Assembly: GCA_004292695.1 (NCBI GenBank)
Contig: RDXV01000032.1
Location: forward strand, 1 to 35,970
Direction: 5' to 3'
Length of the DNA stretch: 35,970 bases
Source: Nostocales cyanobacterium
GTDB lineage: Bacteria > Cyanobacteriota > Cyanobacteriia > Cyanobacteriales > Nostocaceae
Part shown: positions 6,266 to 28,552 of the stretch, one piece after another
How positions within the stretch are numbered: the first letter of the stretch is position 1
Layout of the letters: each line of letters begins with the position of its first letter
Translations under genes and position numbers: made by a program
The notes under the pieces: model-generated
Database searches by the model: none
Seen by the model: only the letters and a program-made list of their open reading frames with translations
Told to the model about the DNA's origin: nothing

Positions 6266-6295
6266 TATTACAAGGGCTGAATTTTGGTAAAAGTG

Positions 6296-7534: not shown

Positions 7535-7536
7535 AA

Positions 7537-8943: not shown

Positions 8944-8971
8944 CTGTGTTTACCTAAATAAATAACTTTTT

Positions 8972-11002
8972 ATGAATCAACATAAGACTAAAGATATCTT
9001 AGGCAAAAAATTTTCTCAACAATCTCTAATACAAATGTTGGACAATTCAAGAGCAGGGCAGCCTTTGTTGCCAAAAACGCTACTTGTAGTCTTAATGATA
9101 TTATTCATAACAATATCAGCTTTTTTTGTCGCTTCTCTAAGTTATATAGTAATTCTTAATATTTTAATTCCAAGTCATTATGAGAAGTCAGTATCCTTAT
9201 CTGCACTTAACTCAAATCTGGAATTAAAATCATGGATTATAGTCAGTGTTGCCTTTATTGCTATTATTTTACTAACAGTTACAACTATCCTCCAAAATAT
9301 TGCTCAAGGATTAAAAATAACAATTTTATTTTTCGGTATATTTTTTAGTTTATCTATGATCTTTAGATGGCTAGACACAACATATATCATCGTTACTCTA
9401 TTTATCAATTTAATTTGTCTTATATTATTTATAGTTAGCTTTTTATCTGTAGGTCTATTTTTTAAATTGAATTATGTGTTAAATCAAAAAAAATATCTAA
9501 TCTTTTATAATCTATTGTATTTATCAATATCTTATATTTCAATTGATGCCATTTTTAATTTAAGATTATTAGATAATCCACAAACGATATATCTGAGAGA
9601 CAAAGGTATTCTGCCTAATTATATACTACTATATATATTAGTAGGAGACACTTTATTTAGTTTATTTATATTAATTCTTAGTTATTTAGCTACCCATTAT
9701 AAAAATAATTTCAATTTTTTCCATACTTGGGCGCTAACAATCGGAACATGGGGTGGAACATCTTTTTACAATTTAGACCTCAGCAATGTTAACTTCCAAA
9801 ATTCTCAACTTCACAACACAGATTTACGAGCAAAAAAACTCTATCGTACCTGTTTTCAAGAAGTCAAAGGATTAGAAACAGCAAGAGTAGATAATCGTTA
9901 TTTAGATTTAGATATTCCCAAAGTAAAAAAACTACTAACAACTGTTGAATATTCTCAAGAATACCAAGATAAAGACTTTAGTAACTTAAACCTCAGAGGT
10001 GCTTTTTTACAAGGTGCTGATTTAAGAAACTTAAACTTTACTGATACAGACTTAACAGGTGCAGATTTAACAGATGCAAAATTACAAGGAGCAATTTTCA
10101 TCCGTACAAAAGTCATTGATGTTAACTTTACCAGAGCAGATTTGACAGGTACTTGTATTAAAGATTGGAGTTACAACCATGAAACTGACTTTACAGAAGT
10201 CAAATGTCAATATTATTATCGAGATATCAACTATGAAGGTAAACCAATCAATAAATATCCTGGACATAAAAATTTTGAAGAAAGAGAATTTGAATCCCTA
10301 TATCAAGATGTAGAAGAAGTAATTGAATTAATTTTTAAAGAAGGAGAAAATTGGCAAACAACCCTATTTAGCATCAAAAAATTACAATTTGAAGATGAAA
10401 ATTTAGGTATAGAATTAAAAGGTTTAGAAAAAAAGGGAGATTACTGGGTTGTCAAAGTTACCTATAATCCTCAATACCTGAAACCAGAAGTTGAAAAAAT
10501 TCTCAATAACACAATAGATGAACTAAAATTACAATTAGCAGATAAAGCTCAAGAATTTAAACAATTAGAACAACGTATTGACAAATTAGTAGATATTTCT
10601 CATCATCAAGCTGAAGCTATAAAAACATTGAGTAAAAAATTTGGTAATAGCTTCTTAATTGTAGGTAGTAAAATTACTAATTTAGCCGGAAAAGGCAATA
10701 TTGAATATCAAGAAGCATCCGCACAAATTCGTAATTTAATGACAAGTACAGATACTGCTGATCAAAATCATGATCTTGTTCAAAAACTCCTATCTGAACT
10801 AAAAAACGAAGGAGTAGTTGCCCCCACAACCCAAACACAAGTAGAATTAATTCAGGAAATAATTATTACAGAAGCAAATCAAAAAACCGACTTTAAACAA
10901 GCACTCCTAGAAAACCAAGAGAATATTCTCAATATGATTACAGAATCAACAGTTAAAAAAGCCATAGAAAACGCCATTAACAGTTTATCTACATCAGATT
11001 AA
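8972..11002 (+). CDS. Membrane pentapeptide-repeat protein with coiled-coil C terminus
   Basis: A 676-residue protein. Five or six membrane segments span about residues 36-240. Pentapeptide repeats of the A(D/N)LXX type follow at about 263-300 and 333-395 (LRGAFLQGADLRNLNFTD), giving a right-handed beta-helix. Then come an alpha/beta domain (about 440-505), a coiled coil (about 508-555), the motif NSFLIVGSKITNLAGKGNI at 559-577 and a helical tail. That motif matches the C-terminal tail of the CHAT protein. The architecture suggests a membrane-anchored scaffold or sensor. The 306-aa gene starts 25 bases downstream, so they form an operon; the divergent protease begins 28 bases upstream. A later start at Met22 (9035) is possible. 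The membrane-coding part is notably A+T-rich. Confidence 0.85.
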   Translation: MNQHKTKDILGKKFSQQSLIQMLDNSRAGQPLLPKTLLVVLMILFITISAFFVASLSYIVILNILIPSHYEKSVSLSALNSNLELKSWIIVSVAFIAIILLTVTTILQNIAQGLKITILFFGIFFSLSMIFRWLDTTYIIVTLFINLICLILFIVSFLSVGLFFKLNYVLNQKKYLIFYNLLYLSISYISIDAIFNLRLLDNPQTIYLRDKGILPNYILLYILVGDTLFSLFILILSYLATHYKNNFNFFHTWALTIGTWGGTSFYNLDLSNVNFQNSQLHNTDLRAKKLYRTCFQEVKGLETARVDNRYLDLDIPKVKKLLTTVEYSQEYQDKDFSNLNLRGAFLQGADLRNLNFTDTDLTGADLTDAKLQGAIFIRTKVIDVNFTRADLTGTCIKDWSYNHETDFTEVKCQYYYRDINYEGKPINKYPGHKNFEEREFESLYQDVEEVIELIFKEGENWQTTLFSIKKLQFEDENLGIELKGLEKKGDYWVVKVTYNPQYLKPEVEKILNNTIDELKLQLADKAQEFKQLEQRIDKLVDISHHQAEAIKTLSKKFGNSFLIVGSKITNLAGKGNIEYQEASAQIRNLMTSTDTADQNHDLVQKLLSELKNEGVVAPTTQTQVELIQEIIITEANQKTDFKQALLENQENILNMITESTVKKAIENAINSLSTSD

Positions 11003-15041: not shown

Positions 15042-15153
15042 CTACTTAATAATTTTTACCAAAAGTTTATAATTAACAGAAAAATTTGTGACAATTTTGA
15101 TACAAAAATGTTAAGAATAGTTACAGCACCTGTAGTACGAGGAAACATTTCTT

Positions 15154-16512
15154 ATGGTTGATTTACATGACAATAAACCACCCCATCAAGTAGTTATCGT
15201 TGGTGGGGGTTTTGGTGGACTATATGCAGCTAAGGCTCTATCTAAGGCTAATGTGAATGTGACGCTGATAGATAAGCGGAATTTCCACTTATTTCAACCT
15301 CTGTTGTACCAAGTAGCTACAGGTGCTTTGTCTCCTGCGGATATTTCTTCACCCCTGCGCTCTGTTCTCAGTAAGAGTAAAAATACTAAAGTTTTGTTGG
15401 GTGAGGTCAATGACATCAATACCACAGAACAAAATGTGATTGTAGGTGATGAAACTGTACCTTATGATACTCTGATTGTGGCCACTGGTGCAAAGCATTC
15501 TTACTTTGGTAAAGATAACTGGGAAGAATTCGCACCCGGTTTGAAGACTGTAGAAGATGCCTTAGAAATGCGTCGGCGGATTTTTATGGCGTTTGAAGCA
15601 GCAGAGAAAGAAAGTGATCCGGCTAAACGTCGAGCTTTGTTAACCTTTGTGGTGGTTGGTGGTGGTCCGACAGGGGTAGAATTAGCTGGGGCGATCGCCG
15701 AATTAGCTGGTAAGACCTTAAAAGAAGATTTCCGCAACATAGACACTTCCGAAACTAAGGTTTTACTGTTAGAAGGTATGGACAGAGTTCTACCACCCTT
15801 TGCACCAGAATTATCCCAAGAAGCACAAGCATCTTTAGAGGCTTTGGGTGTGGATGTGCAGACAAAAACCCTTGTTACCAATATTGAAAATGATATTGTT
15901 ACCATGAAGCAAGGTGAAGAAGTCAAAACCTTAGCTTCTAAAACCGTATTGTGGGCGGCTGGTGTGAAAGCCTCTGCAATGGGTAAAGTATTAATGGAAA
16001 AGACTGGAGCAGAATGTGATCGCGCTGGCCGTGTGATCGTTGAACCAGACCTAAGTATTAAAGGACACTCTAATATTTTTGTCGTAGGAGACTTAGCGAA
16101 TTTTGCCCATCAGAACGGTAAACCCTTACCTGGTGTTGCACCAGTAGCGATGCAAGAAGGGGAATATGTCGCTAAACTCATCCAAAAACGCCTTAAAGGT
16201 GAAACCCTACCACAATTTAACTATGTGGATAGAGGCAGTTTAGCAATGATTGGTCAACACGCTGCCGTTGTAGACTTAGGCTTTATCAAACTCAAAGGTT
16301 TCCTAGCTTGGTTCTTCTGGTTATTTATTCACATCTACTTCCTGATTGAATTTGATAACAAGCTAGTTGTGATGATTCAATGGGTATGGAGTTATTTTAC
16401 CCGCAATCGTGGCGCGAGATTAATTACCGGTAAAGACACCCTCAAACCTACACAAGTGGAAAATAAAGCACACTATCAAGCTGTGAACTCAAGGCAACCA
16501 TTGAACGTGTAA
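15154..16512 (+). CDS. ndh: Type II NAD(P)H dehydrogenase (NDH-2)
   Basis: A 452-residue flavoprotein that oxidises NAD(P)H and reduces quinone without pumping protons. An FAD-binding GGGFGG lies at residues 17-22. A second dinucleotide motif VVVGGGPTGVELAG lies near 167-179, and the FAD-contacting NIFVVGDLANF near 308-318. The C terminus carries aromatic, hydrophobic segments (LAWFFWLFIHIYFL) that should anchor it to the membrane. A GAGG ribosome binding site precedes the ATG. Cyanobacteria usually hold several ndb paralogues; which one this is cannot be decided. A two-hairpin repeat follows the stop. Confidence 0.93.
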   Translation: MVDLHDNKPPHQVVIVGGGFGGLYAAKALSKANVNVTLIDKRNFHLFQPLLYQVATGALSPADISSPLRSVLSKSKNTKVLLGEVNDINTTEQNVIVGDETVPYDTLIVATGAKHSYFGKDNWEEFAPGLKTVEDALEMRRRIFMAFEAAEKESDPAKRRALLTFVVVGGGPTGVELAGAIAELAGKTLKEDFRNIDTSETKVLLLEGMDRVLPPFAPELSQEAQASLEALGVDVQTKTLVTNIENDIVTMKQGEEVKTLASKTVLWAAGVKASAMGKVLMEKTGAECDRAGRVIVEPDLSIKGHSNIFVVGDLANFAHQNGKPLPGVAPVAMQEGEYVAKLIQKRLKGETLPQFNYVDRGSLAMIGQHAAVVDLGFIKLKGFLAWFFWLFIHIYFLIEFDNKLVVMIQWVWSYFTRNRGARLITGKDTLKPTQVENKAHYQAVNSRQPLNV

Positions 16513-16533
16513 CTTTCTAGTTACTTCTCGTTT

Positions 16534-16576
16534 CTCGTTCCCAGTCTCTGACTGGGAATGTCATCAGGAGTAACTG
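16534..16576 (+). repeat. Two-hairpin REP-like element, copy A
   Basis: CTCGTTCCCAGTC-TCT-GACTGGGAATG forms a 9-bp perfect stem (16538-16546 with 16550-16558, extendable by a wobble and a C-G pair). It is followed by a degenerate second palindrome (GGAG...CTCC). Same orientation as copies B and D. The remaining bases up to 16812 hold no recognised gene and should contain the promoter of the next gene. Confidence 0.8.
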
Positions 16577-16812
16577 CCTCCAAAAATTGAGAAAACTTTA
16601 AAATAACTTTAACAACATAAAATCTGTAGATATTGCACTGCTATCTGTATATGAGTTAACATCATTAACTGGATAAGCTACCTGAGCGAAATAAGTTAGT
16701 CAATAAAAAATCAAACCAACAAAATAGTTATTTATCCGGTACATCCAAACAAAATTAGCTTATTCAGTCTTGATAGTATATATGTTAATTTCATATCACA
16801 GAGGTACAATAT

Positions 16813-17757
16813 ATGAATTCTCCTAGCTGTTCACTGTGGATCTTGGCAGCGCGAACCGATTTGCCATTTATGATGCACACAATACCTCATCTGGTGAAGA
16901 TGAGCAAATTTAACTTTAGTGAGCGAGTATTAGCCATAGATACAGCGCCCTTATCTGGGGATAAACTGCTTAGGCCAGGAATTGGAACATTAGAAGAACT
17001 ACGTGCTTGTTGTGAAAAATTAGTAAATGATGGGGTTATAGATAAGGTAGTTGATATTAATTATTCCCCAGAATATCACGATCAAGTATATACAAAACAT
17101 TTTGGTAGTCCTATTCGCAAAACCCATAATTACAAAGGTTATCCAATTTTAGGAACTATTTTTCACATTGAATCTGCAAAAAGTGATTATATGCTCCATT
17201 ATGATAGTGATATGTTGCTTCACCAGCAATCAAATCATAGTTGGATAGACGAAGGGATCAAATTATTAAAAAATCATCCCGAAGTAATGGCAGTCAGACC
17301 ATTAACTGGACCACCAACAGAAGATGGTAGCATATATCAAAAATTTCCTTATGAACATGATCCAGATGGATTTTTTAAGTTTAAGTTTTTTGGTAGTCGT
17401 GTTTATTTAATTGATCGCCAACGTTTTGATCAATTACTACCTTTGAATGTTTTATGGCGTAGTTACAAAAATACCATTCTTAATAACTTACCCACCAAAA
17501 TTAAAACCATTTTAAATAATGCTACTGGCAAGGGTAAATTAGATTCATGGGAAATTATGGTATCTGACAAGTTAGAACAAACATCTTATGTGAGAGCAGT
17601 TCTAGACTCACCATTAGGATGGACATTGCACCCTACAGATCGTAGTCCTGAATTTCTGCAAAACTTACCAGAAATTATAGCCAAAATTGAATCTGGTTGG
17701 TATCCTTCAGAGCAAGCCGGTCACTATGACTTAATGCTTAAACACTGGCTGGAATAA
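16813..17757 (+). CDS. Glycosyltransferase-like protein (GT-A type)
   Basis: A 314-residue soluble protein with features of a GT-A glycosyltransferase: an N-terminal alpha/beta region starting LWILAARTDLPFM, and a DxD-type motif in MLHYDSDMLLH (Asp131-Ser-Asp133) that would bind a metal and nucleotide sugar. The motif-based call is moderate because no exact family was recognised. An AGAGGT ribosome binding site precedes the ATG. The downstream gene encodes a nucleotide-sugar epimerase/dehydratase on the same strand 120 bases away, which supports a role in cell-surface polysaccharide or glycolipid synthesis. Confidence 0.72.
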   Translation: MNSPSCSLWILAARTDLPFMMHTIPHLVKMSKFNFSERVLAIDTAPLSGDKLLRPGIGTLEELRACCEKLVNDGVIDKVVDINYSPEYHDQVYTKHFGSPIRKTHNYKGYPILGTIFHIESAKSDYMLHYDSDMLLHQQSNHSWIDEGIKLLKNHPEVMAVRPLTGPPTEDGSIYQKFPYEHDPDGFFKFKFFGSRVYLIDRQRFDQLLPLNVLWRSYKNTILNNLPTKIKTILNNATGKGKLDSWEIMVSDKLEQTSYVRAVLDSPLGWTLHPTDRSPEFLQNLPEIIAKIESGWYPSEQAGHYDLMLKHWLE

Positions 17758-17878
17758 ACCCTATTTGATTAAAAAAGTGAGAATTTGAGTATTAAACATA
17801 ACTCTTGGTTAGAATAGTATTGCGGAAGAAATACCGAGAAATAGCAAATAATTATCAAACCATCAAAAAATCAAAAAC

Positions 17879-18826
17879 ATGACTAAAATTATCGTCACTG
17901 GAGCGGCTGGTTTTATAGGTTCTAACCTAGTAAATGCGTTGTTAGAAAGAGGTGAAGAAGTAATTGCTATTGATGAATTTAATGATTACTATGATCCTGA
18001 ATTAAAACAGAAAAATGCTGACACTTTTGCTAATTCACCAAACTTAACTTTAATTGAAGATAACATTCAAAGTTTAGATTTACCACAACTTTTTCAAGAT
18101 GTAGAAATAATTTATCATCAAGCTGCCCAAGCTGGAGTTAGAAATTCTTGGGGTGATGGTTTTCGAGCTTATACAGAAAGAAATATCAACACTACACAAG
18201 TTTTGTTAGAAGCTGCTAAGGATGCTCCTAAATTGAAAAGGTTAGTCTTTGCATCTACTTCTAGTGTTTACGGTGATGCGGAAACTTTACCTACCCATGA
18301 GGAAATTGCCCCTCAACCAGTGTCACCCTATGGTATTACTAAGTTGGCTGCGGAAAGGTTGTGTGGACTGTATTATAAAAACTTTGGTGTACCTTTTGTT
18401 TCCTTGAGGTATTTTACTGTTTACGGACCAAGACAAAGACCGGATATGGCATTTCATAAGTTTTTTAAAGCTGTTTTACAAGATGAAGCCATTCCTGTTT
18501 ATGGTGATGGTCAGCAAACTAGAGATTTTACATTTATCAATGATATTATTGCTGCTAATTTAGCTGCTGCTACAGTACCGGAAGCGGTAGGGGAAATTTT
18601 CAATATTGGTGGTGGTAGTAGGGTGGTTTTGACTGAAGTTTTGGACACTATGGAAGCAATTGTTGGTAAGTCAATTCAACGTAACCACATTGGTAAAGCT
18701 ATGGGTGATGCACGTCATACCGCTGCGGATATTTCTAAGGCGAAAAAAATTCTTGGTTATCAACCACAGGTTTCTTTAAAAGAGGGTTTGCAGCGAGAAT
18801 GGGAGTGGGTTAAGTCTTTATATTAA
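17879..18826 (+). CDS. NAD-dependent nucleotide-sugar epimerase/dehydratase (extended SDR)
   Basis: A 315-residue extended short-chain dehydrogenase. The NAD-binding GAAGFIGS is at residues 8-15, the catalytic Ser/Thr cluster STSSVYG near 126-132 and YxxxK at Tyr151-Lys155 (YGITK). LRYFTVYGPRQRPDMAF and YGDGQQTRDFTFINDI are typical of UDP-glucuronate/UDP-glucose 4-epimerase-like enzymes. The product sugar cannot be told from sequence alone. It follows the glycosyltransferase-like gene and likely supplies its sugar donor. A GC-rich hairpin lies after the stop. Confidence 0.93.
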   Translation: MTKIIVTGAAGFIGSNLVNALLERGEEVIAIDEFNDYYDPELKQKNADTFANSPNLTLIEDNIQSLDLPQLFQDVEIIYHQAAQAGVRNSWGDGFRAYTERNINTTQVLLEAAKDAPKLKRLVFASTSSVYGDAETLPTHEEIAPQPVSPYGITKLAAERLCGLYYKNFGVPFVSLRYFTVYGPRQRPDMAFHKFFKAVLQDEAIPVYGDGQQTRDFTFINDIIAANLAAATVPEAVGEIFNIGGGSRVVLTEVLDTMEAIVGKSIQRNHIGKAMGDARHTAADISKAKKILGYQPQVSLKEGLQREWEWVKSLY

Positions 18827-18856
18827 TTGGGGTTAAATAGGTTTTGATCCCCCCAA

Positions 18857-18875
18857 CCCCCCTTAAAAAGGGGGG
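18857..18875 (+). terminator. CCCCCCTT-AAA-AAGGGGGG hairpin after the epimerase gene
   Basis: An 8-bp perfect stem with a 3-base loop, 31 bases after the epimerase stop. A run of nine T residues follows within about ten bases (18885-18894). It could act as a terminator. The same hairpin design also occurs as a dispersed repeat in many cyanobacterial genomes, so both readings are possible. Confidence 0.6.
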
Positions 18876-18923
18876 CTAATATGTCTTTTTTTTTCCCTAG
18901 TTCCCAGTTTCCAACATCCTTAG

Positions 18924-18970
18924 TTCCCAGTCTCCAGACTGGGAATTTTTAATATGAGGCTCTGCCTCAT
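18924..18970 (+). repeat. Two-hairpin REP-like element, copy B (left flank of RAYT)
   Basis: Hairpin 1 pairs TTCCCAGTCT (18924-18933) with AGACTGGGAA (18936-18945). Hairpin 2 is ATGAGGC-TCT-GCCTCAT (18954-18970), a perfect 7-bp stem. It stands 127 bases before the transposase start and in opposite orientation to copy C on the other side. Confidence 0.85.
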
Positions 18971-19097
18971 AAATTGATATATTAAAGGCGATAAAATATG
19001 TATCTGATATTTTGGCATAATCCATAATTCTACGATGTATAATTTCTGCCTCTCAGCGTAAAATCAAATCACTACATCTACTAAGCAAAATCAAACA

Positions 19098-19631
19098 ATG
19101 GGACGCAGCCGCTATCACGTATTAGGCACTCAACCACATTTTATAACCAGCACAATAGTTAATTGGATGCCATTATTTGGACAAACTGAACTCGTGCAAA
19201 TTATCATAGATTCACTCAAATTCATGCAGCAAAAACAGAGGTTGACTTTGTATGGTTATGTGATTATGGAAAATCATTTACATTTGATTGCTGCATCTGC
19301 AAACTTATCTAAAGAAATAGGAAATTTTAAATCATTTACTGCCCGTTCTATTATTGATTTACTGCATAAAAAGAAAGCTGAATATATACTTGGTCAGTTG
19401 GAATTTTATAAGTTAAGACATAAGATTAAACAAGATTATCAATTGTGGCAGGAAGGTTTTCATCCCCAGGCAATTTTAAATGAGGAAATTTTTAGACAGA
19501 AGTTAGAGTATATGCACAATAATCCTGTCAGACGTGGTTATGTTGATGAACCGGCTCATTGGCGTTATTCTAGCTATCGTAATTATATGGGTTTACCGAG
19601 TTTGTTGGATGTGGAGTTGATTGATTTTTGA
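19098..19631 (+). CDS. REP-associated tyrosine transposase (RAYT), Y1_Tnp/IS200-like
   Basis: A 177-residue HUH-type single-strand nuclease of the IS200/COG1943 superfamily. The HUH motif is His60-Leu-His62 in VIMENHLHLI. The nucleophilic tyrosine is probably Tyr138 in LEYMHNNPVRRGYV, by alignment from memory with E. coli TnpA-REP. The family signature NNPV...HWRYSSYRNY near the C terminus is complete. RAYTs are usually domesticated single-copy genes that cut and move REP hairpins. That fits the placement here: inverted copies of the same two-hairpin element bracket the gene at 18924-18970 and 19637-19687. The reading frame looks intact. Confidence 0.9.
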   Translation: MGRSRYHVLGTQPHFITSTIVNWMPLFGQTELVQIIIDSLKFMQQKQRLTLYGYVIMENHLHLIAASANLSKEIGNFKSFTARSIIDLLHKKKAEYILGQLEFYKLRHKIKQDYQLWQEGFHPQAILNEEIFRQKLEYMHNNPVRRGYVDEPAHWRYSSYRNYMGLPSLLDVELIDF

Positions 19632-19636
19632 ATGGT

Positions 19637-19687
19637 TGAGTCGGAGACTCATGATCGCATTCCCAGTCGGAGACTGGGAACGAGGAA
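19637..19687 (-). repeat. Two-hairpin REP-like element, copy C (right flank of RAYT, inverted)
   Basis: Hairpin 2 comes first (TGAGTC-GGA-GACTCA, 19637-19651), then hairpin 1 (TTCCCAGTC-GGA-GACTGGGAA, 19660-19680), then CGAGGAACGAGG. Its reverse complement lines up with copies A, B and D, so it is inverted relative to copy B. It lies just after the transposase stop. Confidence 0.87.
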
Positions 19688-19724
19688 CGAGGAAATACAT
19701 ATATTACATTAAGGATTTAAAGCG

Positions 19725-21122
19725 ATGGACATTCTTACCTATATTCAAAACAGACACTTTACGTACAAGGTAGATGAAGGAACAATTTTTGTTAGTGGGT
19801 TGTGTTTTGAAGAACTAGACGATATTTGTAGCACTAAAGAATTCTATGGAATTGATTTCTATGAACCATACGATTTAAGAGAACCAGGACAACCATTCGA
19901 CTCAGGAGTACAAATTCTCTTGACGGCTGATCACCCAATGTACAATTATAAATCAATAGATCAGCAAATAGATCCAGCTACAGAAAAACAACCAAATGAA
20001 TATGATGCTGTGCTTAGTGAGCAAACTTCACCATTAGCGAGTGCAGCAGTTTTAGGGGGGATTGAAGGCATAAAATTAAGATTAGAAAATCCAGATGTAA
20101 CCATGAAAATTGCTGCACTTTATGAATGCAGTCAATATGGAGAAGAAGGTTTCGACTTATTAATTCAATATTTAAATAATGAATATTGGCAGGTTCAAAA
20201 AGCAGCTTATTTAATATTGAACTCTAGTTTAGATTATTTAATATTTAACTCTAGTTCAAAGCAAAAAATCAAGGAAATATTACAACAAACTAATCAACAG
20301 GGTTTTAAAATAGAACAAATTAAAGAAGTAACAGTTAACGAATATGGAAGAACTATCTACACTGGTTCGCAGATAGTTAAATATTTTATTGAAGATTTAG
20401 GTAAAGGTGTAACTTTAGAAATGGCTGTAATTCCTGGTGGTACTTTTATGATGGGTTCACCAGAATATGAGCAAGGTAGATCATCAAATGAAAATCCTCA
20501 ACATTTAGTAACAGTTCCTGATTTTTTGATTGGGAAATATCCCATAACACAAGCACAATATAAGGCTATTATAGGCAGAAGAGTTTCTAAATTTAAAGGC
20601 AATGATCGCCCTGTTGATAATGTTAGTTGGTGTGATGCGCTGGAATTTTGTCAAGTTTTAAGCCAAATAACAGGTAAAAATTACAAATTACCCAGTGAGG
20701 CACAATGGGAGTATGCTTGTAGGGCAGGAACAGGTACACCGTTTTATTTTGGTAAAACTATTACCACCAATTTAGTAAATTTTTATGGTGAGGCTGATTA
20801 TCCCTACGCTTTTGCTTCAAAAGGAGAATACAGGAAACAAACTACAGATGTTGGCAGTTTTCCACCCAACGCTTTTGGATTATATGATATGCACGGGAAT
20901 GTATGGGAATGGTGTGAAGATGTTTGGCGCAGAAATTACGATAATGCACCTACAGATGGTAGTGCTTTTCTCAGTCGTACTAGGGGCGATATGAAAGTAA
21001 TTCGGGGTGGTAGTTGGCGAATTATACCACATTATTGTCGTTCTGCAAAACGTAGTAGATGCGGAAAAGAATTTAAGGACAACGAACTAGGTTTCCGTGT
21101 AGTTTTATCGGAAATGCCTTAA
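19725..21122 (+). CDS. HEAT-repeat / FGE-sulfatase (SUMF1-like) domain protein
   Basis: A 465-residue protein. Residues 1-100 are unrecognised. About 100-180 resembles HEAT/PBS-lyase-type helical repeats (AVLGGIEGIKLRLENPDV, QVQKAAYLIL). About 233-462 is a formylglycine-generating-enzyme-like domain with MAVIPGGTFMMGS, NVSWCDALEFC, KLPSEAQWEYACRAGT, FGLYDMHGNVWEWCEDVW and VIRGGSWR. Only one of the two cysteines of true FGE is seen in the final motif (HYCRSAKRS), so oxidase activity is doubtful and a ligand-binding C-type-lectin-like role is more likely. It starts 94 bases after the transposase stop. The C-terminal RGGSW...GFRVV segment is the kind diversified by retroelements in other cyanobacteria, but no reverse transcriptase is seen here. 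Confidence 0.85.
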   Translation: MDILTYIQNRHFTYKVDEGTIFVSGLCFEELDDICSTKEFYGIDFYEPYDLREPGQPFDSGVQILLTADHPMYNYKSIDQQIDPATEKQPNEYDAVLSEQTSPLASAAVLGGIEGIKLRLENPDVTMKIAALYECSQYGEEGFDLLIQYLNNEYWQVQKAAYLILNSSLDYLIFNSSSKQKIKEILQQTNQQGFKIEQIKEVTVNEYGRTIYTGSQIVKYFIEDLGKGVTLEMAVIPGGTFMMGSPEYEQGRSSNENPQHLVTVPDFLIGKYPITQAQYKAIIGRRVSKFKGNDRPVDNVSWCDALEFCQVLSQITGKNYKLPSEAQWEYACRAGTGTPFYFGKTITTNLVNFYGEADYPYAFASKGEYRKQTTDVGSFPPNAFGLYDMHGNVWEWCEDVWRRNYDNAPTDGSAFLSRTRGDMKVIRGGSWRIIPHYCRSAKRSRCGKEFKDNELGFRVVLSEMP

Positions 21123-21131
21123 TCATTTTAA

Positions 21132-21611
21132 TTATTCTGCATCAGCATTTTCTGCTGAAGAAATATTCACATCTTCATCAGGTGAAGCAATAAGTTCTGA
21201 TGTTTTCTTAGCTTTCTTGATCTTATCAAGGGTAGTATAACGATGACCCTGCACAAAAGCGCAAGGCTTACCATTTTTGTCCAGTGTATCATTGACTATT
21301 GGATCAACTTCCAGAAAGGGCTTAATATATATTACTTGGCGCGGTTCTTGTGGAATGTCGAGTTGATCAAGAGTTCGTAAAATTGGCGTATTTTCTAACG
21401 TACAATTATTATAAGGAGCATCCACAATTTCGTAGATATGCTCGATTCTGCCATCACTGTAGAACGCGATATAGCCGGAGGATTTAAAATGACGGTTATT
21501 TTGGCAGATGTACATACGATGTTTCAATGCTATTGATTCTGCCCAACTTGCAGCAACAATCAGAACTTGATCATTATTTAAGTCCCAGTTTTTATTTTTT
21601 ACTAATTGCAT
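21132..21611 (-). CDS. Hypothetical protein (159 aa)
   Basis: A 159-residue soluble protein with an alpha/beta N-terminal region (QVLIVAASWAESIALKHRM, YIAFYSDGRIEHIYEI) and an acidic, Ser/Ala-rich tail that may be disordered. No family is recognised. It converges on the HEAT/FGE gene with nine bases between the stops, so it is transcribed independently. The YIAFYSDGRIEH strand-turn-strand recalls nuclease-like folds but is too weak to call. Confidence 0.7.
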   Translation of the reverse strand: MQLVKNKNWDLNNDQVLIVAASWAESIALKHRMYICQNNRHFKSSGYIAFYSDGRIEHIYEIVDAPYNNCTLENTPILRTLDQLDIPQEPRQVIYIKPFLEVDPIVNDTLDKNGKPCAFVQGHRYTTLDKIKKAKKTSELIASPDEDVNISSAENADAE

Positions 21612-21670
21612 AAATTTTTTGATTCTAGTTAGTAATAGTATTTATGATACCATTATTATTCTCGTTATCC

Positions 21671-21719
21671 TCGTTCCCAGTCTGAGACTGGGAATGCAAT
21701 TTTAGAGTCTCTGACTCTA
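21671..21719 (+). repeat. Two-hairpin REP-like element, copy D
   Basis: Hairpin 1 is TTCCCAGTC-TGA-GACTGGGAA (21674-21694). Hairpin 2 is TAGAGTC-TCT-GACTCTA (21703-21719), a perfect 7-bp stem. The element begins TCGTTCCC as copy A does. The rest of this 289-base gap holds only the possible repeat noted next and the leader of the Uma2 gene. Confidence 0.87.
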
Positions 21720-21765
21720 CTGTAAATGTTTTTTATCTAAAAACTTAGATCAATCTTCAAGAATT

Positions 21766-21808
21766 ATCCTGTTCATCCTCAAATCCTGGACATCCTGATT
21801 CAGACAAA
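21766..21808. repeat. Possible dispersed repeat (TCCTGGACATCCTGATTCAG)
   Basis: The stretch around TCCTGTTCATCC...CCTGGACATCCTGATTC has internally repeated CATCCT/ATCCTG words and resembles intergenic repeats of filamentous cyanobacteria recalled from general knowledge. There is no second copy in the window, so this is tentative. Confidence 0.3.
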
Positions 21809-21900
21809 AGACAATTTATAAAAATATCCAGTAATCTTCAAATACCATATCATCTTGCTACATAATAGAAATAAAAGTTGTATCTTTAGGACTAACAATA

Positions 21901-22752
21901 ATGTATCAAACAGATCCACCACTTTCCCCTAAAGAAACATTACCAACAATGTATGATCTTCCCAGCGAGGACCCGGAGGAGAAAGGTTTGCCAGATCAAT
22001 TTCATTTATTACAACCACAATTATTAGCAGACACATTTCGTCCACCTAACTATCCTAGCGACCAAATATTTACAGCTAGTGATATGAATTTATATTATGA
22101 TGGTCGTCATCCATTGTGGCATAAACGCCCAGATTGGTTTGCGGTTGTTGGTGTTTCTTCTCTCTATGAAAAAAGAGATTTAAGATTAAGTTATGTAGTT
22201 TGGCAAGAATTTGTAAATCCTTATATTGTGGTTGAATTACTATCACCAGGAACAGAAAAAGAAGATTTAGGTCAAACTTTGCGAGACGTGGAAAAACCCC
22301 CAACTAAATGGGAAGTTTATGAGCAAGTTTTAAGAGTTCCCTATTACGCAATTTTTGATAGGTATAAATCTGAATTTAAAATGTTTGAGTTAAAGGGCGC
22401 TCATTATGTTGAAGTAAATTTATCAGATTTACGTTTTTGGATTCCTGAATTAGAATTAGGTTTGGGTGTTTGGCAAGGCAGTTATAAAAATGTGAATATG
22501 CCTTGGTTACGTTGGTATGATAAAGATGGTAATTGGGTGTTAACTCCTGTGGAAGAAGAACGCCAAAAAGTTGAACAGGAACGACAAAAAGTTGAACAAG
22601 AACGCCAAAAAGCTGAACAGGAACGCCAAAAAGCTGAACAAGAACGACAAAAAGCTGAACAGGAACGACAAAAAGCTGAACAGGAACGACAAAAAACAGA
22701 AAAATTAATTGCCCAATTGCGAGCGCTTGGTGTTGAACCTGAATTAGATTAA
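21901..22752 (+). CDS. Uma2-family (DUF820) PD-(D/E)XK endonuclease-like protein with coiled-coil tail
   Basis: A 283-residue protein. Residues about 45-190 form the Uma2 domain typical of expanded cyanobacterial families: RPDWFAVVGV, NPYIVVELLSPGTEKED and a Lys-Trp-Glu-Val-Tyr-Glu segment supply the expected Asp, Glu and Lys of the PD-(D/E)XK core, followed by VPYYAIFDRY. Residues about 216-270 are seven-residue repeats RQKxEQE, encoded by 21-bp tandem repeats, which should make a long charged coiled coil. A clear intrinsic terminator follows the stop. The biological role of Uma2 proteins is poorly known; nuclease activity is inferred from the fold family. Confidence 0.9.
   Translation: MYQTDPPLSPKETLPTMYDLPSEDPEEKGLPDQFHLLQPQLLADTFRPPNYPSDQIFTASDMNLYYDGRHPLWHKRPDWFAVVGVSSLYEKRDLRLSYVVWQEFVNPYIVVELLSPGTEKEDLGQTLRDVEKPPTKWEVYEQVLRVPYYAIFDRYKSEFKMFELKGAHYVEVNLSDLRFWIPELELGLGVWQGSYKNVNMPWLRWYDKDGNWVLTPVEEERQKVEQERQKVEQERQKAEQERQKAEQERQKAEQERQKAEQERQKTEKLIAQLRALGVEPELD
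22558..22704 (+). repeat. 21-bp tandem repeat coding for a coiled coil (6 units plus a degenerate seventh)
   Basis: Units of 21 bases of the form GAACGMCAAAAAGYTGAACAR start at 22558, 22579, 22600, 22621, 22642 and 22663. A seventh at 22684 is diverged. Each codes one heptad of the Uma2 protein's tail. Differences are mostly C/A or T/C and partly silent, suggesting recent expansion and turnover. Confidence 0.93.
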
Positions 22753-22777
22753 ATCAAAAAATTTATGATGTTTGTTT

Positions 22778-22804
22778 ACCACATTTTATAAATGTGGTTT
22801 TTTT
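22778..22804 (+). terminator. Intrinsic terminator after the Uma2 gene
   Basis: ACCACATTT-TAT-AAATGTGGT forms a perfect 9-bp stem with a 3-base loop, followed at once by six T residues. It lies 26 bases after the stop codon. Confidence 0.9.
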
Positions 22805-22844
22805 ATGTTTTTAGTTAGTATTTAATAGCCAGATTTATGAACAA

Positions 22845-24029
22845 CTAAATTTTCAAAAACCAACGCTGACGATACATAAAATAAAGCACTATCCACCATA
22901 ATAAAAGATTAGCTATAGCAAACAATAAAGAACCATTCAAATTTCCCGCCCACGCACTAAACAAATTATTATAAATCCAGGTTTTTGTAGAGATAGCATC
23001 TTTACCACTATCCACAGAAGTTTTAACTAAAATTCTCCCCACAACCCCAGAACCAACAAAGAGAAAAATGGCATTTAAACCCATCACTTCCCAAGGAAAA
23101 CCCCATTTTTTTAAACCCCGCACTTCTACCATTTCATAACACAAAGCTAAGACTAATAAAGCCCAACCAGCAGTATAAACTACATAAGAACTTGTCCACA
23201 AAGATTTATTAATAGGAAATACAAAACCCCAAAATATACCAATAATTAAACACCCCAAACCCCAAATTACTAAATTAATACTTGTCCTACTTTTCACCTG
23301 CTGTTTTTGCAACCATAAACCAGTAAAATAACCAATTAAAACTGTTACCACTGCGGGAATAGTGCTAAATAAACCTTCAGGCTCAAATGGTCCACCTTGA
23401 TAAAGATGTTGACTTCCTAAAATCATCCGATCAATATAACCAGCTAAATTTCCTTCAGCAGATAAATTACCCGCACCAAAACCAGGAACAGGTATTAATT
23501 GCATTGCAACCCAATAACCTAAAAGTGATATTCCTGAAAATATCCATAAACCACGTTGGGAAATTTGTAAAACCAAAAAAGCAGCTATTACATAAGCTAA
23601 ACTGATCCGCTGCAACACTCCCATAATTCTAATTTTACTTAAATCAATGGCTATTTCTTTTAAAGTAAAATCGAGAAAAATAGTAAATAAAGTTAGAAAT
23701 AAACCTAATGCAAATAACACCAAACCTCGGCGAATTATTCGTAAATAAACTTGATAAGTGGGACGTTTTTCTAGTGTGTTTCCTGGTGTATATTTAGCCA
23801 AAGAAAAAGGCATTGCTACACCAACAATAAATAAAAAGAACGGGAAAATTAAATCTGTTGGTGTGCAACCATGCCATTTTGCGTGTTCCAATGGTGGATA
23901 AATGTAACTCCAACTACCGGGGTTATTAGCTAATATCATAGAGGCGATCGCAATTCCCCGAAATACATCCAGGGAAACAAGACGGGGAAACGAATTTTTA
24001 ATTAATGGATCTTTCATTACTGTTGACAC
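22845..24029 (-). CDS. COG4299 membrane protein (DUF5009 / heparan-alpha-glucosaminide N-acetyltransferase-like)
   Basis: A 394-residue polytopic membrane protein with about ten hydrophobic segments. The family hallmark is the N-terminal SLDVFRGIAIASMIL followed by an aromatic loop and WHGCTPTDLIFPFFLFIVGVAMPFSL. Relatives include human HGSNAT and bacterial NagX-like proteins thought to transfer acyl groups to sugars across the membrane. The acyl acceptor here is unknown. ATGs at 24029 and 24017 are both plausible starts. The upstream gap to tex carries several dispersed repeats. Confidence 0.87.
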   Translation of the reverse strand: MSTVMKDPLIKNSFPRLVSLDVFRGIAIASMILANNPGSWSYIYPPLEHAKWHGCTPTDLIFPFFLFIVGVAMPFSLAKYTPGNTLEKRPTYQVYLRIIRRGLVLFALGLFLTLFTIFLDFTLKEIAIDLSKIRIMGVLQRISLAYVIAAFLVLQISQRGLWIFSGISLLGYWVAMQLIPVPGFGAGNLSAEGNLAGYIDRMILGSQHLYQGGPFEPEGLFSTIPAVVTVLIGYFTGLWLQKQQVKSRTSINLVIWGLGCLIIGIFWGFVFPINKSLWTSSYVVYTAGWALLVLALCYEMVEVRGLKKWGFPWEVMGLNAIFLFVGSGVVGRILVKTSVDSGKDAISTKTWIYNNLFSAWAGNLNGSLLFAIANLLLWWIVLYFMYRQRWFLKI

Positions 24030-24089
24030 AAAAAATTTCCTATGAGTTTAAAAACATAATAAACGAATGAGCATTTAATTAATAAAATA

Positions 24090-24107
24090 TCAGGGTTAAA
24101 ACCCTGA
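24090..24107. repeat. Palindrome TCAGGGTT-AA-AACCCTGA
   Basis: A perfect 8-bp-arm palindrome in the gap between the membrane acyltransferase-like gene and tex, next to two other repeats. No T-run follows. It is likely a dispersed palindrome. Confidence 0.55.
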
Positions 24108-24140
24108 CTACGAGCTAACGTGAAAATATCTATTAAAAAT

Positions 24141-24176
24141 CTCTTTCTCTGTGTTCTCTGCGTCTCTGCGGTTCGT
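24141..24176 (+). repeat. Dispersed repeat, copy 2
   Basis: Matches the repeat at 3869-3902 in the same orientation (core TCTCTGCGGTTCGTT against CCTCTGTGGTTCGTT). Confidence 0.55.
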
Positions 24177-24183
24177 TATTTTC

Positions 24184-24230
24184 TGAGTCAGAGACTCAAG
24201 ATAAAATTCCCAGTCTGAGACTGGGAACGA
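24184..24230 (-). repeat. Two-hairpin REP-like element, copy E (inverted)
   Basis: Hairpin 2 is TGAGTC-AGA-GACTCA (24184-24198). Hairpin 1 is TTCCCAGTC-TGA-GACTGGGAA (24207-24227), followed by CGAGG. Orientation is as for copy C. It ends five bases from the tex stop codon. Confidence 0.87.
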
Positions 24231-24234
24231 GGGG

Positions 24235-26397
24235 TTATTGTTTAACTGCTTTCATTGATAAACCTATCCGTTTTAATTTTTCATTCACTTCTAAAACTCT
24301 CACTTTTACAACTTGTCCAACTTTCACAACCTTCTTAGGATCATCAATAAATCTATCAGCTAATTGTGATATGTGAACTAAACCATCTTGATGAACTCCA
24401 ATATCTACAAATGCACCAAAATTAGCCACATTAGTAATAATTCCTTCTAATTCCATTCCCTCTTTTAAATCACTAATTTCCTTAATTCCCTCTTTAAATG
24501 TCGCATACTTAAATTCTGCGCGGGGATCTCTACCGGGTTTTTCTAATTCACTGAGAATATCTCTCAAAGTTGGTTCACCAATGGTATCAGTAACGTATTT
24601 TTTCAGGTTGGTTTTTTGCAGTTTTTCCGCTATTTGTGTTACCTGTTTTAAGGGTACTTGTAAATCTTTGGCGATGGTTTCAACTACTTGATAACTTTCT
24701 GGATGTACTGCGGTATTATCTAATGGATTTTCTCCATCTCTAATTCTTAAAAAACCTGCTGCTTGTTCAAAGGCTTTTGGTCCCAGTTTCGCTACTTTTA
24801 GCAGTTGTTTTCGATTTTTAAAAGCACCATTTTGATTACGGTAGGCAATAATATTATTAGCAACTGTGGGGGTAATTCCCGATACAAATGTCAGCAATTC
24901 TTTAGATGCTGTATTCAAATCTACACCCACATAGTTAACACAACTTTCTACGGTTTCATCAAGTTTCTTTTTCAAAAGTTTTTGATCTACATCATGTTGA
25001 TATTGTCCCACACCAATTGATTTAGGATCAATTTTCACTAATTCCGCTAGGGGATCTTGTAATCTTCTCCCGATACTAATTGCACCCCTAACAGTCACAT
25101 CTAAATCGGGAAATTCTTCTAATGCTAATTTACTAGCTGAATAGATAGAAGCACCTGATTCATTTACCATCACTTTGATAGGTTTTCTGTCACAGTTTGC
25201 TAATACTTCTGTAACAAATTCATCGGTTTCACGGGATGCAGTACCATTACCAATTGCTATTAATTGAATGTTGTATTTTTCAATTAATTTTTTAAGAGTT
25301 TGGGCGGCTTTTTGGCGTTGTTCTGCTGCTTGATGGGGGAATACGGCTTGATATTCTAAGAATTTACCTGTTTGATCTAAAACTGCAACTTTACAACCAG
25401 TTCTAAAACCTGGATCTATGGCTAATGTGGGTTTCATTCCTGCGGGTGCAGATAGTAATAATTCCCGCAAGTTTGTTTCAAAGGTTTTGATAGATTCAAT
25501 ATCAGAATAGGTTTTCTTTTCGGAAATTACTTCACTAATTAATGATGTTTTCATCAAGCGGTTAAAGGCATCTTTTAACATTGCTTGATAGAAGTCTCTG
25601 ATGTTTCTAACTTTGGTTTTGATTTCTTGAGATTCTAAATAGGAAAGTACAAAATCTTCATCAAAGGAAACATCAAAGGTGAGTATTTTTTCCGCTTCTC
25701 CTCGACATAAGGCTAACATATTATGAGGAGCTATTTTATTAACTTTGATTTGGTAATTACGGTACATTTCAAATTTGGTTGTACCTTGGGGGTGTTTTTC
25801 TTCTTTGATTTGGGAAATAAATACACCTTCATCTAATAAGTATTCTCGTAAATATGCCCTGAGTTCAGCTTTTTCTGCTACTTCTTCTGCTAAAATATCC
25901 GATGCGCCTTTTAATGCTTCTTCGGCATTTTTGACACCTTTTTCTTCAGATATATATTTTGCTGCTTCTGTTTCTAAATTCGCAGATGCACCATTTTTGA
26001 TGTTTAATGATTTGATAAATGCTGCTAAAGGTTCTAGTCCTTTTTCTCTAGCAATGGTAGCACGGGTACGGCGTTTGGGTTTGTAGGGTAGGTATAAATC
26101 TTCTAGTTCTGTTTTTTGTAGACAGTTGGTAATTTTTTGTTCTAGTTCTTCTGTGAGTTTACCTTGTTCGGCGATCGCATTGATAATCACCTTTTTTCTG
26201 TCTTCTAATTCTGTTAAGTATGTGTACCGATCAGATAAGTCCCTTAATTGTACTTCGTTCATTTCTCCGGTACGTTCTTTTCGATACCGAGCAACAAAGG
26301 GAATAGTTGCACCTTCTGAAAATAATTCTAGTGCATTTTGGATTTGGTAGGGTTTTAGTTCTAGTTCAGTAGCGAGTAATTGAGTAATATTTAACAT
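24235..26397 (-). CDS. tex: Tex-family RNA-binding transcription accessory protein
   Basis: A 720-residue protein with full Tex architecture: a helical N-terminal domain (EGATIPFVARYRKERTG near residues 29-45), a YqgF/RuvC-like domain (about 320-450, LAIDPGFRTGCKVAVLD), helix-hairpin-helix motifs (about 490-560, VGVDLNTASKELLTFVSGI) and a C-terminal S1 RNA-binding domain (about 645-715, GIITNVANFGAFVDIGVHQDG). Tex binds nucleic acids and is linked to transcription fidelity and RNA turnover in bacteria. The length matches the family. The start MLNITQLLATEL is the only reasonable one. Confidence 0.96.
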   Translation of the reverse strand: MLNITQLLATELELKPYQIQNALELFSEGATIPFVARYRKERTGEMNEVQLRDLSDRYTYLTELEDRKKVIINAIAEQGKLTEELEQKITNCLQKTELEDLYLPYKPKRRTRATIAREKGLEPLAAFIKSLNIKNGASANLETEAAKYISEEKGVKNAEEALKGASDILAEEVAEKAELRAYLREYLLDEGVFISQIKEEKHPQGTTKFEMYRNYQIKVNKIAPHNMLALCRGEAEKILTFDVSFDEDFVLSYLESQEIKTKVRNIRDFYQAMLKDAFNRLMKTSLISEVISEKKTYSDIESIKTFETNLRELLLSAPAGMKPTLAIDPGFRTGCKVAVLDQTGKFLEYQAVFPHQAAEQRQKAAQTLKKLIEKYNIQLIAIGNGTASRETDEFVTEVLANCDRKPIKVMVNESGASIYSASKLALEEFPDLDVTVRGAISIGRRLQDPLAELVKIDPKSIGVGQYQHDVDQKLLKKKLDETVESCVNYVGVDLNTASKELLTFVSGITPTVANNIIAYRNQNGAFKNRKQLLKVAKLGPKAFEQAAGFLRIRDGENPLDNTAVHPESYQVVETIAKDLQVPLKQVTQIAEKLQKTNLKKYVTDTIGEPTLRDILSELEKPGRDPRAEFKYATFKEGIKEISDLKEGMELEGIITNVANFGAFVDIGVHQDGLVHISQLADRFIDDPKKVVKVGQVVKVRVLEVNEKLKRIGLSMKAVKQ

Positions 26398-27537: not shown

Positions 27538-28548
27538 CTAATTTAGCTCTCTAGCTAATTTTGCTTTAATTTTTTCCATATTTTGATCAACACTATAAAC
27601 AATCAAATATTTAAAGCTATCACTTAACTTAGTATCAATATCTTTTCCTGCAATATTTTCAATTCTACAAATTGTTTCCCTAATCACTTGTTCCGTAGCT
27701 GTACTTAAAGATTCTCTTACTTCATTTACCTTTAAGTTTGTTAATATTCTAATAATTGTTTCCAGAAAGGGTTGAACAAATTCTTCTAATACACTATGTC
27801 CATAATAAAAGTCTAAAATTTTATCTTCCTGAATTGAATATTGTTCTAATAATCGGCTTTTTATTTCTGGAATATCATGTTCAAAGGTAGCATCATACCA
27901 ACCTTCACCCATTTGATTTTTCAGGGTTTCTAATATATCATTTACCCTCTCTTCAATCTTTTGATATACAATATTCTCATCGCCAATATTACCAAATTCA
28001 GTTCTTTGAAAACGCACAACTTTTTTGAATGTTTCTTTATTGATAACAGTATTATCAAAATCTTTAATTTTATTTTCTTTTAAATAAACCCAAATATAAA
28101 ATAAAGGTGCTACTTTCAGAGAAATATTTTCTAGCAAAGTCTGGAAATTATCATATCTTTTGGTAGTTAAATCTTTACATATTTCATTTAATGATAAGTG
28201 ATGACAGTGGAAATTTTCTTTACTATAAACAACAGTGTGATAAATATATTTAGCAATATACCAAACTTGATTATCATAAAGATATTCACAATCACTATCA
28301 ACACAAATAATTAGTTTTTTATTGACACAATCTTTAAATTTTTTTAAGATATCTTTTCCGCGAGTTCCTTTAGCTACAGGATTAGGAAAATCAATTTTAT
28401 CTCTTAATTCTGGTTTGACATTTTGAATAATATATTCCCAAATTCTTTGATCATAAATATCTTCAACTAATACAGAAATATCACATCCTTTCATAAAGGC
28501 ATCTTCAATCATTCTTGTAGCTAACATTTCATAATCTTGATCTTTCAT
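27538..28548 (-). CDS. DUF4435 TOPRIM-like protein, AriB-like (PARIS-type effector)
   Basis: A 336-residue protein of the DUF4435 type. TOPRIM-like acidic residues are visible: Glu29 in ISVLVEDIYD and the DxD pair Asp84/Asp86 in LIICVDSDCEYL. The rest is helical and unrecognised. It starts four bases after the stop of the ATPase gene, so the two are translationally close and must act together. An ATPase followed by a DUF4435 protein is the makeup of the PARIS antiphage system (AriA-AriB), where AriB is a TOPRIM nuclease released on phage triggering that cuts tRNA. Lengths agree with that pair. The assignment is by motif and gene order only. The locus is very A+T-rich, which fits horizontal acquisition. 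Confidence 0.8.
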   Translation of the reverse strand: MKDQDYEMLATRMIEDAFMKGCDISVLVEDIYDQRIWEYIIQNVKPELRDKIDFPNPVAKGTRGKDILKKFKDCVNKKLIICVDSDCEYLYDNQVWYIAKYIYHTVVYSKENFHCHHLSLNEICKDLTTKRYDNFQTLLENISLKVAPLFYIWVYLKENKIKDFDNTVINKETFKKVVRFQRTEFGNIGDENIVYQKIEERVNDILETLKNQMGEGWYDATFEHDIPEIKSRLLEQYSIQEDKILDFYYGHSVLEEFVQPFLETIIRILTNLKVNEVRESLSTATEQVIRETICRIENIAGKDIDTKLSDSFKYLIVYSVDQNMEKIKAKLARELN

Positions 28549-28552
28549 TATT

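Follow-up and report, generated by a model that had tools for sequence, protein, structure and literature searches.

RAYTs (REP-associated tyrosine transposases), REPtrons, REPINs and cyanobacterial REPs of the GTAG type have all been described before. In E. coli TnpA-REP, residues W94, Q95, E100, H101 and R104 have been linked to the GTAG foot, the role of W94 being unclear, as presented in the available portions of PMC6006769 and PMC8266576. In one REPtron the cut dinucleotide tracked changes of the foot by cross-pairing, and like attempts failed in two others (PMC8266576, available portion). TnpA-Y1 proteins without GT[AG]G are also on record, namely subclass 2.6, which corresponds to Bertels group 5 and occurs mostly in Bacteroidetes, and class 3 (PMC6006769, available portion). 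Here we describe a two-hairpin unit with the foot CTCG, which joins the non-GTAG and double-palindromic relatives already in print. It was found in a stretch of 35,970 nucleotides, analysed as a whole and called the window below. Positions 18924-19687 of the window are very probably a REPtron of a CTCG-footed kind, whose RAYT would bind, cut and move or copy the unit. The features concerned are the following.

18894-18913, + strand: incomplete direct copy of the left unit's beginning (90% over 20 nt, family D2)
18920-18969, + strand: left two-hairpin unit, decayed, foot TTAG (R2 47.1 bits; fold z -5.58), with hairpin 1 at 18924-18945 and hairpin 2 at 18953-18971, ending 2 nt past the R2 match
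19098-19631, + strand: RAYT (HuH Y1 nuclease), an ORF of 177 aa, assigned from NF047646, fold and residues
19637-19684, - strand: right two-hairpin unit, intact, inverted (R2 64.7 bits, E 6.8e-15; fold z -4.65), with hairpin 2 at 19637-19651, hairpin 1 at 19660-19680 and the foot CGAG at 19681-19684 (CTCG on the - strand)
16534-16581, + strand: further unit, intergenic, 3′ of the gene 15154-16512 (R2 47.4 bits)
21670-21718, + strand: further unit, intergenic (R2 64.7 bits; fold z -4.68)
24184-24231, - strand: further unit, intergenic (R2 60 bits; fold z -4.14)

Two models of the unit were used. R1, whose structure line is shifted by one column in hairpin 1, acts mainly as a sequence profile; R2 has the correct register and was applied to four sources.

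The gene at 19098-19631 is a RAYT with the TnpA-REP fold. Its product scores 103.9 bits with NCBIfam NF047646 (REP_Tyr_transpos; cut-off 80), and Pfam returned no match at E 0.001. It carries the motifs N59-H60-L61-H62 and W117-Q118 and the catalytic Tyr138; N59, H60, H62 and Y138 are invariant among 29 aligned orthologues. An AF2 model built on this 29-sequence alignment (pLDDT 90, pTM 0.85) has its best structural match in 4er8_A, E. coli TnpA-REP with a REP hairpin (Foldseek E 3.7e-09; Z 15.5, rmsd 2.5 over 140 aligned residues). IS200-type transposases reach Z 9-11, IS608 and ISDra2 coming next after 4er8 at Z 10-11. Within the source assembly (5.39 Mb in 324 contigs, the window being contig C174) the ORF is the sole close copy, and three other loci match it at 26-36% identity.

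Folded as single strands, both the left and the right unit are more stable than all of 200 shuffled versions. Allowing at most one mismatch, the window contains 21 occurrences of TTCCCAGTC versus 6.04 expected, none of 100 shuffles reaching 21, and a strict form of the hairpin is found at 24 places in the genome versus 0 for the reversed control. The unit at 16534-16581 lines up with the unit to the left of the RAYT in Trichormus sp. NMC-1 (locus L022), BLAST matching L022 4280-5779 to window 15072-16586. The initial annotation had proposed a Y1 transposase with an intact HLH motif and a candidate Tyr138, flanked by units in opposite orientation whose foot is other than GTAG. The transposase is borne out by NF047646 and by the invariant residues of the 29 orthologues, the opposite orientation by the located hairpins and R2, and the foot by the CTCG of the right copy. 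The left copy, said to begin with CTCGTTCCC, did not live up to this description: its foot is TTAG and the customary (T/C)GC after hairpin 1 is gone, and it is therefore considered decayed.

The anatomy of the unit was derived from 61 aligned copies, selected because they have a CTCG foot and pair in both hairpins. Their consensus is CTCG, a 9-bp hairpin, (T/C)G, a spacer some 6-10 nt long and a 5-6-bp hairpin. Hairpin 1 starts with TTCC in nearly all of them, and the loop is TCN in 53/61 and 56/61 for the two hairpins. Within the foot, CG can form pairs with the (T/C)G following hairpin 1 (G4 with T in 42/61 and with C in 18/61), so that only the CT of the foot is clearly unpaired. Twelve of 17 pairs changed on both sides and 99.5% of cells are paired; since the units were preselected for pairing, only the outer pairs C3-G28 and G4-Y27 (formed in 59/61 and 60/61), where pairing was no selection criterion, are free of selection bias in this covariation count. 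With the foot left free and only the hairpin preset as TTCC...GGAA, the nearest hairpins beside RAYT genes were collected on 68 sides, six of which lacked such a hairpin. The foot was CTCG in 48 of the remaining 62, ATCG in 3 and CTAG in 2. A second hairpin lay on the gene side in 48/62 and on the outer side in 7/62 (shuffles, 2.6%). The apical bases of the two hairpins are identical at 2.37 of 3 positions versus 1.92 after re-pairing (28 loci; 0/5000), the values being 2.29 versus 2.25 for the 20 cyanobacterial loci alone (2702/5000) and 2.56 versus 2.24 for the 8 others (142/5000). This likeness may be a lineage signal alone.

The CTCG unit may resemble the CGTC REP sequences of other bacteria. 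Common to both are a stem of 8-9 bp with A/T in the first two pairs, a non-GTAG tag and inverted doublets, whereas CGTC REPs, as described in the available portion of PMC3733652, have the tag CGTC, loops of 4-5, the tail CCA and no adjacent transposase gene. Identity with them is ruled out by the foot CTCG and the adjoining RAYT. GT[AG]G REPtrons share the HuH Y1 fold, the low copy number, the inverted, dispersed palindromic flanks and the partly inverted doublets (PMC6006769 and PMC8266576, available portions). Here, in contrast, the foot is CTCG, each unit has two hairpins, and WQEG(F/S)HP stands where these REPtrons have WQxRFW(E/D)H, the equivalents of E100, H101 and R104 being replaced (comparison with the available portion of PMC6006769). 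The replaced residues, the CTCG foot of 48/62 nearest hairpins and the occurrence of GT[AG]G hairpins at 0/24 loci rule out a GTAG REPtron.

Likenesses are also found among systems without GT[AG]G. Subclass 2.6, as far as the available portion of PMC6006769 describes it, shares NH(L/I/V)H, WQ, a length of about 179 aa, the lack of GT[AG]G, a guide-reading region that is not conserved and atypical flanking structures; compared by description, its structures are weaker and its tyrosine motif is YIH(Q/N)NP, whereas many proteins here have YMHNNP. Set against this motif line, the CTCG clade agrees in NH(L/V)H, in WQ (28/29) and in its 177 aa, and partly in Y(I/M)H(N/Y/Q)NP. TIRtrons and their double palindromic TIRs (Di Nocera 2013, PMC3733652, available portion) likewise combine a RAYT-like gene with inverted, partly self-complementary non-GTAG flanks, some of which form repeat families, but by their text description several carry the motif GGGGWSAS and not CTCG. 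The CTCG clade may belong in subclass 2.6 or among the TIRtrons. Class 3 TnpA-Y1 proteins also have a non-GTAG foot (CnGA) and possibly many copies per genome, but their tyrosine motif is Y----Q in place of the Y(I/M)H(N/Y/Q)NP seen here (PMC6006769, available portion). Searches of open-access papers, subscription papers being outside their scope, for CTCG with 'tyrosine transposase' and palindrome, and for the hairpin letters with Anabaena, returned nothing. Among the matches listed for open-access titles on RAYT and cyanobacteria, on RAYT and REPIN, and on the hairpin letters, none concerned the unit.

To what extent gene and unit go together was examined at many loci. Scanning a species-level genome collection yielded 40 loci, comprising 23 cyanobacterial loci, 10 other loci with an orthologue and 7 more distant or partial matches (L053-L059); the last are outside the 23- and 10-locus totals, and one of the 7 (L056) carries the unit. 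In cyanobacteria, a unit lies within 600 bp of the RAYT at 22/23 loci, at 2.20/kb versus 0.050/kb further out (44x), and 16/23 loci have the arrangement left + / right -. The one locus without a unit, L026, has a CTAG-footed hairpin. The 10 non-cyanobacterial RAYTs, at 52-61% protein identity, come from SAR324, Myxococcota, Planctomycetota, Methylococcaceae and one further bacterium. Eight of their loci have a unit within 600 bp and seven have the outward arrangement, the density near the RAYT being 129x that further out, a ratio resting on 1 far match; the two loci without the pattern, both from SAR324, carry an ATCG-footed version. All 13 genomes to which orthologue loci led, 10 being non-cyanobacterial, contain copies of the unit, the poorest having 5; the gene of L056 is partial.

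Within the family of the window, 23/24 orthologue loci carry the unit and 0/24 a GT[AG]G hairpin; at the locus without a pattern unit, L093, R2 detects divergent units on the left. Distant RAYT paralogues, drawn from G000, G001 and 24 genomes rich in the repeat but lacking the orthologue, present another picture: among their 34 loci the unit occurs at 1 and GT[AG]G hairpins at 12 (L097, a RAYT remnant, is in neither list). The family loci and the collection loci overlap in kin, and the two sets are not independent. Both systems coexist in the window's own genome, which has the CTCG locus and a GTAG RAYT locus (L003). In a tree with long branches, a single branch (97/98, 96% of bootstrap trees) separates the CTCG group from the rest; the group had been picked by likeness to the query, and L053, L055 and L058, without a usable frame, were left out. 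The pairing of RAYT and repeat is thus strongly supported, and it is wider than cyanobacteria.

Copy numbers were then compared in 155 genomes drawn evenly from the family, with an orthologue at E 1e-40 in 24 (three of these being partial matches and one containing an internal stop) and absent in 131. Pattern counts sum the forward and reverse strands, so that fully palindromic copies count twice. The median is 61 copies with the orthologue and 1 without it (Mann-Whitney p 3e-11, kinship ignored), and at least 20 copies are found in 22/24 versus 21/131 genomes, 43/155 in all. In 11 of the 13 genera with mixed content, copies are higher with the orthologue (within-genus permutation p 3e-5); genus g28 has nearly no difference, and g29 and g21 go in the opposite direction. 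Counting the best ~39 per genome, R1 matched 16 times or more in every one of the 24 orthologue genomes and at least once in 67/131 others. One orthologue genome, G068, has 0 pattern matches, with divergent units to the left of its RAYT only. The initial annotation had named two observations that would refute its REPtron, and neither was made. Orthologues do sit beside the repeat (22/23, 8/10 and 23/24 loci), and together with the copy-number link these flanking units support the REPtron reading of 18924-19687. The repeat is far from equally common without the RAYT at the median, with the qualification that 21/131 such genomes have at least 20 copies. The epithet 'cyanobacterial' has proved too narrow, in view of Planctomycetota, Myxococcota, Methylococcaceae and, with the foot ATCG, SAR324.

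The most serious alternative is that the RAYT is a passenger, the repeats being spread or kept by other means and the gene happening to lie in intergenic DNA that is rich in repeats, much as certain insertion sequences are found within REPs. What speaks for it are the copy-rich genomes without the orthologue (G152 with 170 copies, G042 with 101, G076 with 54 and G032 with 46), whose best RAYT matches are distant or absent; in G152 the RAYT-like matches are partial only, 31% and 40% identical to other RAYTs. We nevertheless judge it unlikely, as units face outward on both sides of the gene at 16/23 cyanobacterial and 7/10 other loci, distant RAYTs of the family have the unit at only 1/34 loci, and copy number tracks the gene in 11/13 genera. 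The 21/131 genomes imply that the repeat either persists after the gene is lost or is moved by something else. Gene loss does happen and has left direct evidence. In G001, the sole other genome of the genus searched, some 30 nt of the gene survive at the RAYT locus together with the leader and the left unit, and different DNA follows; in G073, 71 residues from near the end of the gene remain behind other sequence, with the right unit. Past gene loss is the simplest account of the repeat-rich genomes without an orthologue. Related genomes with and without the RAYT offer a natural experiment on whether such a repeat depends on its transposase for its persistence.

We return to the CTCG REPtron, in which mobilisation of the unit by the RAYT is likely and would provide a likely origin for a repeat present at 20 copies or more in 43/155 genomes of the family. 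In the mechanism that we propose, the RAYT acts as a low-copy HuH nuclease and would most likely bind the exposed single-stranded unit CT-CG-hairpin 1-(T/C)GC-spacer-hairpin 2, for example on the lagging-strand template. Tyr138 would cut beside the foot, and the unit would be moved or copied. About half of the genomic sites consist of a REPIN-like doublet, feet outward and second hairpins inward, placed after the pyrimidine-rich T-N-(C/T). The RAYT gene itself is for the most part passed on within one neighbourhood. Deletions within doublets produce single hairpins that are footed at both ends, and genomes from which the RAYT is gone tend to have lower copy numbers. Single-stranded DNA binding, the cut site and transposition are what we infer for this RAYT.

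How the foot might be read is suggested by an alignment to 4er8, from which the residue equivalences are taken. The equivalents of W94 and Q95 are retained (W117 in 29/29 and Q118 in 28/29 orthologues). That of E100 is P123 in 28/29, that of H101 is Q/E/K/V124, and that of R104 is R127 in 1/29. The motif WQxRFW(E/D)(H/Y)xI(R/K) is retained in 9/11 GT[AG]G-flanked paralogues with a readable frame. Foot and loop thus differ together between the two groups, which is a correlation and does not prove that they touch. From these sequences, the changed loop would be a candidate for reading CTCG directly, and by analogy the published guide model, applied to CTCG, would predict a cut at CG or CA. Going further, the CTCG two-hairpin unit and a RAYT clade of its own, spread over five lineages (Cyanobacteriota, Planctomycetota, Myxococcota, Pseudomonadota and, as ATCG, SAR324), with foot and reading loop changed together, could constitute a third class of REP tag beside GTAG and CGTC, a proposal that we hold tentatively and with slightly less than even confidence. 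If it is true, the cut moves from CT to CG or CA under the guide model, and both hairpins, with their common loop TCN, are read by one protein. Within one enzyme fold, the CTCG system combines a changed tag with a changed candidate loop for its recognition, which makes RAYT specificity testable by swapping foot or loop.

Genomic sites were analysed in G000, where at least 86 R1 matches fall into 51 sites, among the best 150 of 661 candidates. On this same basis, 27/51 sites are doublets with the feet outward (+-), 24/51 are single and 0 have the feet inward, and the 35 adjacent unit pairs divide into 27 +-, 8 pointing the same way and 0 -+. Doublets (25 measured) are 106-118 nt long, 107 and 113 being the commonest lengths. 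Upstream of the foot in 155 cyanobacterial units, many of them related to one another, the base at -1 is C/T in 90% and that at -3 is T in 70%, and G accounts for 1% at each of -1 and -2. In 20 units from outside the cyanobacteria the bias is lower, with 75% C/T at -1 and 40% T at -3. It may reflect a target preference. Around the gene, 3 other sites lie within about 10 kb versus 0.09 expected (P ~1e-4); two of these are apparently common with Trichormus, and the clustering may therefore be old local structure and not hopping. Left of the RAYT in two Scytonema genomes, units are repeated at 87-nt spacing, three at L039 5758-5932 and four at L048 5670-5931, which is tandem growth beside the RAYT. 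In G152, a CTCG doublet lies within a longer palindromic element at L127 14798-14990, with ends TTGGTGTCAACTTAA and TTAAGTTGACACCAA.

Two stretches of G152 were compared with relatives in a search for empty sites, four to five doublet sites being inspected. At one orthologous site, G152 and G111 have a full doublet, G160 and G156 a single hairpin remnant, and G141 neither, the site being replaced. The remnant has clearly a foot at both ends in G160 and is decayed in G156. Central deletion of an inverted dimer would yield the double-foot form of GTAG REPs (PMC6006769, available portion). At another site, doublets occupy two different nearby places in G152 and G111. The compared sites had changed in several ways, and no clean empty/filled pair that would fix the cut points or reveal a target duplication was found among the doublet sites inspected.

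These sites bear on a second alternative, in which the units are retained for a host role, such as stopping transcription or forming RNA 3′ ends, and the RAYT is no more than their historical source. The five units of the window all lie outside ORFs of at least 80 aa, their hairpins are stable and many units persist in some genomes without the gene, all of which would fit. We find this role quite improbable, however. The variation of one orthologous site from doublet to hairpin remnant to nothing across five related genomes is unlike a conserved host function, and no Rfam family reached threshold over 16400-24400. In addition, G001, with its gene remnant, has far fewer copies than G000, 9 versus 64 by pattern, and at least 18 (best 150 of 576) versus at least 86 (best 150 of 661) by R1.

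Further RAYT sequences were found in two genomes: in G129, an internally deleted remnant lies between inverted CTCG units at L132 10934-11319, about 2.5 kb from the intact gene, and G111 has a second fragment elsewhere in its genome. Although these second places and the HuH Y1 fold common with the IS608 and ISDra2 transposases (Z 10-11) might recall an ordinary mobile IS200/IS605 element with subterminal hairpins as its ends, such an element is highly improbable, because 23/24 genomes have one RAYT match at E 1e-40 (G111 has two) in place of many near-identical copies, TnpA-REP outranks the IS transposases at Z 15.5, and the window, Trichormus and Anabaena loci have one RAYT neighbourhood in common, with two extra genes intervening in the window.

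Elsewhere in the window, a 21-nt repeat is present in about 6.6 copies (93% matches) at 22558-22695, within the end of a Uma2 gene, where it encodes a repeated charged tail. Neighbouring genes at 6284-11002 encode a CHAT-domain protein with a weak match to SAVED_CHAT, a pentapeptide-repeat protein and, from the opposite strand, a trypsin-like protease. On the - strand at 27538-29974, two genes match AriA (172.8 bits over residues 2-283) and AriB (83.6 bits; Pfam DUF4435) and form a PARIS-like defence pair, of which the AriA-like protein has an extra C-terminal part with weak PPR-repeat matches.
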